Below are positions 8,212 to 57,827 of a DNA stretch of 64,000 nt, piece by piece. The stretch comes from Leptolyngbya ohadii IS1 (GTDB lineage Bacteria > Cyanobacteriota > Cyanobacteriia > Elainellales > Elainellaceae), in NCBI RefSeq assembly GCF_002215035.1, contig NZ_NKFP01000006.1, forward strand, positions 4,183,080 through 4,247,079, written 5' to 3'. Both the position numbers and the translations under genes were made by a program. The notes under the pieces are model-generated. The model did no database searches and had not been told where the DNA came from. It was given only the letters and a program-made list of their open reading frames with translations. Position 1 is the first letter of the stretch; each line of letters begins with the position of its first letter.

Positions 8212-10320
8212 TCACCGCAAGCCCAGCAGATCAACTGCCACCAATTTCCGCACTGAGTTCATTAGCCAGATTCGATCGCACGCTACCAACTCCGCGATCG
8301 GAATCACCCGCTCCTGAATTTTTCCTGCGGCGAGTAGCTCTGCCCGATAGGTTCCCGCTAGCAGCCCCGACTCGATCGGCGGTGTGAATGCCTGCCCATT
8401 TTGCTCAACGACAAGATTACCAATACAGAATTCCATCGCTTCCCCGCGATCGTTCCACAGCAGTACCGTTTCCGCCTGGGGACAGGCTTGTTTTGCCCGC
8501 TCATAGATCGATCGGTTAGTTGTCTTGTGATACAGGAAGGGATTGTTGATCTCCACTGGAAAGGGGCAGAGCTGCGCTTTGAGGGTGTGTGCCGTCGGAC
8601 TCCAGGGCTGATGCGTTAAGTTCCATTGTCCGCTTTGGGAAACCGTTAGCCGGACTCGGTACTCTCCGCCGGATTGAGTTGATTCCGTTTGCAGGGAAGA
8701 CGATCGCTCTGCCATCAGACGATCCACCTGTGGTGGCTGCGCGAAGCGGTTGGATAAGTCGAGTAACGCCTGTCGAATTTCATCTCGATGAATTCTGTAA
8801 TTGAAATACTGCGCCGAATTTTGCAGCCGTTCCAGATGGCGATCGAGCAGAAAGTAACCGTTTGTGGGCGTCCAGAGGATCGTTTCCAGCAGATCAAAGG
8901 CAGGCTGCGATTGGGTGAGAATTTGTGCTTTGGTGTAGCACTCTTGCAGTTCTGCCGTATCTGCTGAGTCCCAGACAATGCCGCCCCCTGTACCGTATTC
9001 TGCGGTTTGTGTCAGGCGATCGATCAGGATAGTACGGATTGCGACGCTGAATTGGGCTTTTATCCCGGTTGGGACAGGTGAATTTCTGCGATCGGATGAG
9101 TTGCTGAAGTCTTTGCAGCCCCCTAAATCCCCCACCAGTGAGGGACTTTGAAACGTTAAATTTTCTTGTAACAAAAGGGAGGACTGCGTCGGCTCGGTTC
9201 CCCCCAGAATTGGGGGGTTAGGGGGGCGCAAAGGGTGAACATCATCTGAATGATTTGTTTCAGTTCCTTCTGCAAGGTATGAGCTAGCTGGACTCATCCA
9301 CCCGATCGTCCCCGTATAGAGCTGTCGAGGCGTCGTTTCCAGTTCGGTAATAATCTCCATCGTGCGGGCTTTGGGCGCACCCGTAATCGAGGCAGGGGGA
9401 AACATTGCCTGAAAAATTTGGGCGATCGAAGCAGATGTCTTCCCCTGCACAGTGCTGGTCATTTGCCAGAGGGTAGGGTATTGCTCCAGGTCAAACAGTC
9501 CGGGAACGGAGACGGAACCCACTTCGGCGATCTGTCCCATATCGTTGCGAACCATGTCCACGATCATCAGATTTTCCGCCTGATTTTTTTCCGACTGGCG
9601 CAGTTCGTTTGCCTGCTGTCGATCGCGTTCCTGCCACAGCCCACGGGCGATCGTGCCTTTCATGGGACGGGAAATGAGCTTTTGATCATTCAGCGTAAAA
9701 AATAGCTCAGGAGACGCGGAGCAAATTGACCAGTCGGGCAACTGCAAAAATGCTCCATAGCCCGCCCCCTGTGCCCGAATCAGATGCAGCCAGAACTGAA
9801 ACGGATCGCCCGCAAAGTCCGATCGCAGCCGAAACGTATAGTTGACCTGATAGGTATCTCCGGCATGAATTCGGCGCTTGATTTGCCCAATTGCCGATCG
9901 ATATTCTGCTTCATCGATCGACGGTTGCCAGTTGAGCGAGGGCAAAGCCGCCTGACTGAGGGGCAGTTCTATCCCCTGCGGCTGAGCATACAGCCCAAAC
10001 CAAATCAGCGGGAACTCCGACGGGTGAGCCTTTAGCGTTGGATCAAACGCAGGCGCGGCGTCATACGCCACCATTCCGGCAGCATGAAGAGATTCATCTC
10101 TAACGCGCTGTTCGACCTCTTGCAGCAGGGGAAGTACCCGATCGATCGCCTGTGTGGTGTAAATCGCGATCGGCTGCTGAAACAAGAGCCATTGACAGCG
10201 ATCGGCATCGTGCAGCAGCAAGGAATGATCAGTAAGGGAGAAGCGATCCACCTGTGGTGGCTGCGCGAAGCGGTCGGACGAGGGTATATCGGCAGTCATA
10301 GGTTTTTCAGGATTCCTCAT
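8212..10320 (-). CDS. pabB: fused aminodeoxychorismate synthase component I and aminodeoxychorismate lyase (PabB-PabC)
   Basis: 702 residues. The N-terminal half is PabB (chorismate + glutamine-derived ammonia to aminodeoxychorismate): HAGDTYQVNYTFRL, the catalytic-Lys motif RPMKGTIARG, MIVDMVRNDMGQIAEVGSV and ASITGAPKARTMEIITELE. The C-terminal part (from about 465) is a class-IV PLP fold like PabC (4-aminobenzoate + pyruvate): LLETILWTPTNGYFLLDRHL, candidate PLP lysine in HKTTNRS, and MEFCIGNLVV. Together they would make p-aminobenzoate for folate. Unusual: a roughly 60-residue insert before AQFSVAIRT is encoded by a dispersed repeat, and the peptide FAQPPQVDR occurs twice. ATG 10320 or 10299. 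Confidence 0.9.
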   Translation of the reverse strand: MRNPEKPMTADIPSSDRFAQPPQVDRFSLTDHSLLLHDADRCQWLLFQQPIAIYTTQAIDRVLPLLQEVEQRVRDESLHAAGMVAYDAAPAFDPTLKAHPSEFPLIWFGLYAQPQGIELPLSQAALPSLNWQPSIDEAEYRSAIGQIKRRIHAGDTYQVNYTFRLRSDFAGDPFQFWLHLIRAQGAGYGAFLQLPDWSICSASPELFFTLNDQKLISRPMKGTIARGLWQERDRQQANELRQSEKNQAENLMIVDMVRNDMGQIAEVGSVSVPGLFDLEQYPTLWQMTSTVQGKTSASIAQIFQAMFPPASITGAPKARTMEIITELETTPRQLYTGTIGWMSPASSYLAEGTETNHSDDVHPLRPPNPPILGGTEPTQSSLLLQENLTFQSPSLVGDLGGCKDFSNSSDRRNSPVPTGIKAQFSVAIRTILIDRLTQTAEYGTGGGIVWDSADTAELQECYTKAQILTQSQPAFDLLETILWTPTNGYFLLDRHLERLQNSAQYFNYRIHRDEIRQALLDLSNRFAQPPQVDRLMAERSSSLQTESTQSGGEYRVRLTVSQSGQWNLTHQPWSPTAHTLKAQLCPFPVEINNPFLYHKTTNRSIYERAKQACPQAETVLLWNDRGEAMEFCIGNLVVEQNGQAFTPPIESGLLAGTYRAELLAAGKIQERVIPIAELVACDRIWLMNSVRKLVAVDLLGLR
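8720..8750. repeat. 31-bp repeat copy A inside pabBC
   Basis: Identical over 31 bp to 10244-10274. It contains the palindrome CCACCTGTGGTGG followed by GCGCGAAGCGG. On the coding strand it reads FAQPPQVDR, here between the class-IV fold N-terminal part and the rest of the lyase domain. Confidence 0.85.
9114..9230. repeat. dispersed GC-rich inverted-repeat element, inside pabBC
   Basis: About 117 bp. One end contains CCCCCCAATTCTGGGGGG and the other CCCCCTAAATCCCCC. Both ends, in the same order, recur at 57713-57827 with an unrelated middle, and degenerate parts occur at 27626-27795 and 32631-32656. Within pabBC it is read in frame, giving the PPNPPILGG and SLVGDLGG peptides. Confidence 0.85.
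10244..10274. repeat. 31-bp repeat copy B inside pabBC
   Basis: Second copy of the 31-bp sequence at 8720-8750, in the same orientation and same reading frame, encoding FAQPPQVDR near the N-terminus of the protein. Confidence 0.85.
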
Positions 10321-10418
10321 CTATCCTCTCAAAGCCCACAGATACAGACAAATTGATTGGCAAATTGATTGGCAAATCGATCGCCTGTCCGTTACCCATC
10401 TATCCTATTCAGCATTAC

Positions 10419-27590: not shown

Positions 27591-27625
27591 AAGACTGCGA
27601 GAGGAGAAGCGGAGATCCTGCATTA

Positions 27626-27795
27626 CCCCCTAAATCCCCCACTAGTTATTTGCCGCACCACAAGTGCGAGTGGGGGACTTCCGATCCTTGATTGGTTGCA
27701 GCCTTTGAGAGCTACCAGATGGAAGGCTACCCTGTATAGTCATCCAAATTGTACGGTTTCAAAGTCTCCACGAGTGAGGAATTTAGGGGACTGCA
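27626..27795. repeat. dispersed GC-rich inverted-repeat element (degenerate copy)
   Basis: It starts with CCCCCTAAATCCCCC and ends with the diverged inverse (AATTTAGGGGACTGCA). The right half, with TTTCAAAGTCTCC, aligns with the corresponding end of the element in pabBC. It fills the spacer between argZ and the VOC gene. Confidence 0.65.
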
Positions 27796-27833
27796 ACGAC
27801 TAGAACACTTACAGAGATTCGATCAGAACTTCC

Positions 27834-57712: not shown

Positions 57713-57827
57713 CGCCCCCCTAGCCCCCCAATTCTGGGGGGAACTGAACCTGGACAAGTATTCCTTTGCACCTAGAAACCCTCTTGTCTCAAAGTCCCCC
57801 AAATTTGGGGGATTTAGGGGGCGTGCA
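57713..57827. repeat. dispersed GC-rich inverted-repeat element between ctaD and ctaE
   Basis: About 115 bp. Ends CCCCCCAATTCTGGGGGG and GGGGGATTTAGGGGGC match both ends of the element in pabBC (9114-9230) in the same order; the middle about 50 bp is unrelated. Positioned within the oxidase gene run. Confidence 0.85.

Follow-up and report, generated by a model that had tools for sequence, protein, structure and literature searches.

Small mobile palindromes that are read in frame within bacterial proteins are already known, both as miniature inverted-repeat transposable elements (MITEs) and as repetitive extragenic palindromic sequences (REPs), as three papers describe (PMC2229807, PMC10969869, PMC3733652). 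Rickettsia palindromic elements (Ogata et al. 2000) are reported as dispersed palindromes lying in frame in unrelated proteins (PMC2229807, PMC10969869), with a conserved peptide (PMC10969869). The small MITEs of PCC 7120 are characterized there by terminal inverted repeats and target duplication, and are sometimes located within genes (PMC10969869), while GTAG- and CGTC-tagged REPs, including the cyanobacterial families GTAG-12, -15, and -16, are reported in coding regions, with loops and linkers suggested to tolerate them in proteins (PMC3733652). In this study, a related case was analyzed in Leptolyngbya ohadii IS1, in a stretch of 64,000 nucleotides of contig NZ_NKFP01000006.1 (positions 4,183,080 to 4,247,079, hereafter the window), where the folate gene pabBC carries a copy of a dispersed repeat in its reading frame. 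The insert is very probably a copy, eroded or truncated on its left side, of a palindromic element of MITE type that is non-autonomous and has spread through the genome; with its open frame, this copy would be translated. An earlier reading of the letters and open reading frames (ORFs), the first-pass annotation, had proposed that a palindrome-rich dispersed element entered this gene in frame, and that proposal holds.

The pabBC gene (8212..10320, minus strand) encodes a 702-aa fusion of PabB (aminodeoxychorismate synthase component I) with a PabC-like aminotransferase of class IV. Its reading frame is intact over 702 codons, without stop or frameshift (minus strand, 10320-8212), and remains open throughout the insert, as had been stated. 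The first part of the protein was recognized by the NCBIfam profile TIGR00553 pabB (330.9 bits, above the curated cut-off of 328.4), and Pfam returned Chorismate_bind, split in two stretches, plus Aminotran_4. Compared with a same-genus relative (genome G001), the whole insert in the PabB domain covers 9070..9279 (minus strand), corresponding to residues 348-417, or 70 aa. Within it lies the core element (9118..9227, minus strand), 110 bp bounded by GCCCCCCTAACCCCCCAATTCTGGGGGG and GTGGGGGATTTAGGGGGC and encoding residues 365-401 (37 residues); the core reads GCCCCCCTAACCCCCCAATTCTGGGGGG...TGGGGGATTTAGGGGGC inside this first (PabB) domain. The element had been placed at 9114-9230, with a length of about 117 bp and about 60 added residues; its presence and in-frame addition stand, and its extent and size are replaced by these values. 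The core is composed of two GC-rich hairpins in inverted order, enclosed by a terminal stem. As RNA it is predicted to fold at -42.5 kcal/mol (z -1.94), with 10 of 200 shuffled sequences equally stable, and Rfam returned nothing at E ≤ 0.1 for positions 8600-10400.

PabBC was searched in 60 genomes, L. ohadii included, and 29 loci of relatives were taken (L067-L095), of which the 18 best (L067-L084) were aligned; the 11 farther matches, with 33-40% identity, were excluded. An alignment of homologues had been suggested for judging lineage specificity, and the insert was absent from all 18 aligned relatives, in which only a few residues separate two conserved blocks at this spot. The comparison gives a clean insertion contrast, unlike the length-variable sites in MutS2, MenE, and CobB discussed below. 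With phmmer, the insertion site corresponded to residues 398-407 of E. coli PabB (1k0e_A), between a stretch ending in SIGYLS and a stretch starting with ITIRT. Judged from this sequence match, the site would be a hairpin turn or loop of the chorismate-binding domain; the earlier placement in a loop of this fold agrees, as a prediction from sequence, with the short stretch at this spot in relatives. A single-sequence AlphaFold2 model of PabBC gave no usable structure (mean predicted local distance difference test score, 33.6).

The enzyme is constrained, without clear relaxation, as indicated by 81% identity of its PabB part to that of G001, non-synonymous/synonymous divergence (dN/dS) between the two genes of 0.166/1.074, and near-equal distances to outgroups. 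Identities to three outgroups were 0.618/0.606, 0.555/0.548, and 0.519/0.533 for L. ohadii/G001 over PabBC, and 0.688/0.688, 0.675/0.688, and 0.662/0.688 near the insert. The protein near the insert thus evolves neither faster nor slower than its G001 counterpart, and the suggestion that the element was kept as a linker finds no sign of function in these data.

The dispersal of the repeat, proposed from its recurrence at a second place in the window, was confirmed by BLAST and left-arm counts above chance. Against the L. ohadii genome (7.90 Mb, 8 contigs), the core gave 42 BLAST matches at E ≤ 0.001, self and partial matches counted. Both ends of the element were also searched, as had been recommended. 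The 27-nt left arm occurred at 43 places with at most one mismatch (reversed control pattern, 0), and the right-end pattern gave 160 matches at the same tolerance, 100 of them listed; the reversed control of the latter (117 matches) is not independent, as the pattern resembles its own mirror image. In the window, a second copy of the core at 57714..57822 (plus strand) matches that of pabBC along its entire length with 76% identity and is flanked by ORFs encoding cytochrome-oxidase-like proteins. This recurrence had been reported at 57713-57827, which required a correction of the boundaries alone. A third, diverged, two-ended copy was observed at 27620-27800, with CCCCCTAAATCCCCC at 27626 and a degenerate end at 27776. 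Allowing up to three mismatches, CCCCCTAAATCCCCC matched the window 11 times, versus a mean of 1.97 and a maximum of 6 in 100 shuffles.

Outside L. ohadii, the search of 40 genomes found the left arm twice in G001, once in G009, and once in G015, and in none of the other 36. The exact left-arm 28-mer is present in at least 106 public stretches from many cyanobacteria; among the matches listed, its hosts include Moorena, Petrachloros, Okeania, Phormidium, Pseudanabaena, Acaryochloris, and others, together with one metagenome-assembled genome of Chloroflexota.

Recent-looking copies are longer units bounded by GGCGTTGCTGAAT and ATTCAGCAACGCC, with a length of 177-237 bp in the L. ohadii genome, most commonly 184 or 185 bp. 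Identical 8-mers flank such units, for example AAAAATCT, GAAGTTTT, or GGATTTGC, and an 8-bp target duplication with at most one mismatch accompanied 26 of 42 short pairs of terminal repeats in the examined loci (L. ohadii, 12 of 14 pairs; other genomes, 14 of 28). Some of the 42 rows are nested alternatives of one place. On account of these ends and duplications, the family consists of MITEs: the units are short and have terminal inverted repeats and 8-bp duplications. The terminal-repeat pattern is widespread in cyanobacteria: it was present in 66 of 146 genomes, with no match of the reversed control. The two-hairpin core forms the interior of the unit, which is too short for a transposase, and also occurs without the ends, as in pabBC. 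On the right side of the pabBC core, a putative extension of the element covers 30 nt (9088..9117, minus strand), based on co-linear flank alignments. Two of 119 right flanks of other copies aligned co-linearly from the core end, scoring 19.0 and 16.0, where 5000 random stretches had a 99th percentile of 14.0 and a maximum of 17.5; the match scoring 16.0 (C6:1273929) is identical at 23 of 30 nt without gaps. Three more right flanks scored 16-18, none of them co-linear with the pabBC copy. The latter probably retains the core plus part of the right arm.

The abundance of cores without outer terminal repeats, including that of pabBC, and of hairpins found singly would also be expected if the hairpin core moved by itself in the manner of a REPIN, with its two REP-like hairpins in inverted order, mobilized by a REP-associated tyrosine transposase (RAYT) or another HUH transposase, with the GGCGTTGCTGAAT MITE as one carrier. 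This origin is considered unlikely. The only match to Y1_Tnp (PF01797) in the genome is interrupted by an internal TAG, neither a GTAG nor a CGTC tag was visible next to the hairpins in a subset of copies inspected, and the recent-looking copies bear the terminal repeats and 8-bp duplications described above.

The pabBC copy is not unique in being read through. In 83 stretches of the L. ohadii genome (583 kb), picked around listed ends and hence a non-random sample, 114 end clusters were identified, 18 of them in frame within ORFs of at least 150 aa with at least 20 residues on each side. Fourteen ORFs, representing 16 of these 18 copies, were scanned, leaving out ORFs of 154 and 826 aa (C4:436166 and C4:539011); Pfam domains were detected in 12 and none in the remaining two. 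The recognized hosts are PabBC, a SoxA/GcvT-like protein, an Ndh-SelD fusion, a GUN4 protein, MutS2, CobB, MenE, MenC, a RimI-like acetyltransferase, PhnE, a polyketide synthase (PKS) of 2800 aa, and an FGGY kinase. Together they contain 14 in-frame copies, eight of which are single hairpin ends and six two-ended (PabBC, SoxA-like, PhnE, MenC, and two in the PKS). Among the full set of 43 left arms, seven were in frame (ORF of at least 150 aa, at least 25 residues on each side), one of these in the doubtful 154-aa ORF. In 80 of the at least 106 public stretches, 8 of 105 clusters fell within ORFs of at least 200 aa; seven of these eight ORFs have Pfam domains, and two have a common N-terminal half.

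Four of the host proteins, PabBC, MenE, MutS2, and CobB, were compared with relatives. The CobB and MutS2 insertions (two of the four) are common to L. ohadii and G001 at the same place, and these copies (L102/L293 and L099/L273, respectively) have decayed by point mutation with the frame retained; such insertions can therefore outlast speciation. MenE of G001 lacks the insertion. The copies in MutS2, MenE, and CobB sit where length varies among relatives as well.

Some of these host genes show further features. The PKS ORF (G000:C6:2234945-2243344; L126:5246-13645, plus strand) contains three in-frame copies, two of them two-ended and one a single hairpin, located between or inside domains. 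In the SoxA/GcvT-like ORF (G000:C4:874044-877793; L146), one copy is in frame, and the ORF terminates at a stop codon that lies within a second copy. The peptides APQPPINGGLPN and QPPTSGGLPNP directly precede the element in the RimI-like protein (L124:2572-3432, minus strand) and in the PKS (L126:5246-13645, plus strand), which suggests that they represent another translated repeat family.

A repeat found in frame in so many proteins could be a pre-adapted coding element or the residue of selection acting on random insertions; the two were distinguished here, and the latter is favored. Thirty-five two-ended cores were available. The 28 counted as intergenic, which include one in the 154-aa ORF, average 1.14 open frames out of six, versus 1.79 expected (standard deviation 0.22, first-order Markov resampling), fewer than their composition predicts. 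Five of these 28 are open in the frame that pabBC uses. Genic copies are read in several frames and on both strands: PabBC, the SoxA-like protein, and PhnE contain PPxPPILGx...GDLGG; MenC and the PKS contain RxLNxPxxGD...GxPQNWGARGA; and the 826-aa ORF contains PPYPPNSGG. With few open frames among intergenic copies and no single frame common to the genic ones, the evidence favors an element with no coding frame or peptide of its own, and genic copies that are insertions filtered by selection. A putative depletion of copies from genes is likely. That every genic copy has retained an open frame is no argument here, being circular: these copies were chosen by their position in long ORFs.

These results define how the family compares with the described systems. 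Similarly to Rickettsia palindromic elements, the repeat is dispersed, palindromic, and located both between genes and in frame within unrelated conserved proteins. In contrast to them, as they are described, the element has no inherent open frame. The first-pass likening to the Rickettsia elements is accordingly sustained for in-frame recurrence in unrelated conserved proteins and fails for a conserved frame or peptide. With the cyanobacterial MITEs of PCC 7120 it shares small size, terminal inverted repeats, target duplication, and some intragenic copies; Anabaena MITEb, MITEe, and Nezha may or may not be related to it. The GTAG/CGTC REPs, too, are palindromes situated in the coding sequences of known proteins, whereas the present core lacks the tag, is longer, and has intact copies with MITE ends. 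A literature search over titles and abstract beginnings, in which the sequences of MITEb, MITEe, and Nezha were not compared, found no description of the present family, and a search with strings from the element returned no paper on cyanobacterial repeats among the matches listed.

The sequence of events could be as follows. A transposase supplied in trans would move the non-autonomous elements, and one copy would have entered a short turn of the PabBC chorismate-binding domain. With a net insert length that is a multiple of three and a stop-free frame, it would be translated as an extra loop. Selection may then remove out-of-frame or harmful insertions, so that the surviving genic copies would be those that are readable and harmless; a benefit to the enzyme is not needed in this explanation. 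The insert thus looks like a tolerated selfish insertion that is not special to this enzyme.

Several observations weigh against this explanation. The pabBC copy itself has no recognizable terminal repeat, and no target duplication was found around it. Its left flank resembled random sequence in comparison with 86 other left flanks (mean score 7.7 versus 7.8), the best score being 12.0, below the random 99th percentile of 13.0. With a terminal repeat not found and a random-like left flank, the copy is classed as a core-bearing derivative and not as an intact MITE. Of the 70 inserted residues, the core supplies 37; this leaves approximately 33 beyond it, only about 10 of which are explained by the right arm. 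A mobilizer was not recovered either: core-end pairs 0.5-3.5 kb apart in the sampled stretches of the L. ohadii genome enclosed no parent insertion sequence, and no recognizable transposon was enclosed in 80 public loci by core-end pairs with a spacing of 0.6-2.6 kb, or in the examined loci by terminal-repeat pairs with a spacing of 0.5-2.6 kb. Translation of the insert is itself deduced from the open frame. Furthermore, genic copies were picked via the ORFs spanning them, so that their open frames do not count as separate evidence and genic copies that break a frame may have escaped detection. A check of this point, made by eye alone, is in favor of the explanation: next to the 36 left arms found not to be in frame, none of 31 pairs of same-strand ORFs, ending and beginning at the element, looked like a split protein.

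Among the core-end pairs in the L. ohadii genome, the one with a transposase-like ORF, C6:2305092-2306174, was rejected as the autonomous form: it is a separate two-ORF insertion sequence, bounded by terminal repeats of its own (AGACCTCCTGCA) and nested in an element copy that it interrupts. By its appearance, we take it to be of the IS5 type.

A role for the insert in the enzyme appears very unlikely. Under such domestication, the Pro/Gly-rich loop would serve PabBC, for example where the enzyme contacts its glutamine amidotransferase partner or where its two fused domains meet, as the intact frame and the constrained gene might suggest; however, the insert is missing from every aligned relative, and unrelated proteins contain the same repeat. 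Least probable of all is that the insert is absent from the mature protein (by ribosomal bypass or splicing) or that the gene is dead, since the strong folding of the core RNA noted above is countered by the 702 codons free of stops and frameshifts, by constraint on both sides of the insert, and by the fact that skipping predicts out-of-frame copies in otherwise intact genes, of which the visual check around the 36 other left arms recognized none.

Read as a tolerated MITE-type insertion, the pabBC copy belongs to a set in which one genome shows a hairpin-rich mobile repeat accepted in PabBC, MutS2, MenC, MenE, CobB, and a PKS, and the genic copies represent natural insertion mutants at defined places. 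For annotation, this suggests that recurrent Pro/Gly-rich segments such as PPNPPILGG, QSPPELGDLGG, RPLNPPSLGDFE, or APLAPQFWGE in cyanobacterial proteins can be repeat-derived.

The pabBC gene contains a second repeat that is open in frame. Its peptide, RFAQPPQVD, is present at two places of PabBC, encoded by in-frame 27-nt repeats in the PabB-PabC linker region (8722..8748, minus strand) and near the N-terminus (10246..10272, minus strand). The underlying 31-nt stretches (8724-8754 and 10248-10278) have one difference, and the PabBC of G001 is shorter at both spots. A 25-mer of this repeat was found five times in the genome with at most two mismatches, both pabBC copies counted, and a degenerate form with at most four mismatches 19 times in the examined stretches, these five included. 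In looser copies, the unit is 27 nt long and placed at GCG^ATCGC within the HIP1 site GCGATCGC (GCG^ATCCRCC...GAAGCG^ATCGC), and the HIP1 halves are degenerate around both pabBC copies. Being nine codons long, the unit keeps any frame. Small dispersed repeats of the SDR5 type in HIP1 were reportedly described by Elhai et al. in 2008. SDR5 is reported to insert between nucleotides 3 and 4 of HIP1 (PMC4390886), the position also seen for the 27-nt repeat. By this insertion site, the two pabBC repeats are SDR5-like; a difference from SDR5 is that a single gene has two of them read in frame.

A speculative and rather unlikely reading is that in this lineage two unrelated families of hairpin repeats, the MITE core and the SDR5-like 27-mer, continually add peptides to conserved enzymes, and that in-frame copies recombine to give gene fusions. 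If true, segments of this kind, persisting from species to species, would act as portable homology, a bacterial counterpart of exon shuffling, with a locus pair of Moorena bouillonii PNG (NZ_MKZS01000001.1) as an example. In this genome, the ORFs L176:2269-6441 (plus strand) and L174:1733-4255 (minus strand) have 4052 bp in common at 99.85% identity. The common stretch spans an in-frame element copy in a P-type ATPase gene, and the two sequences diverge about 50 bp behind the element; in L176, the N-terminal half of the ATPase runs in frame into CobN (profile positions 368-1087), giving a protein of 1391 aa. This junction looks like either an element-mediated gene fusion or a misassembly at the long repeat.
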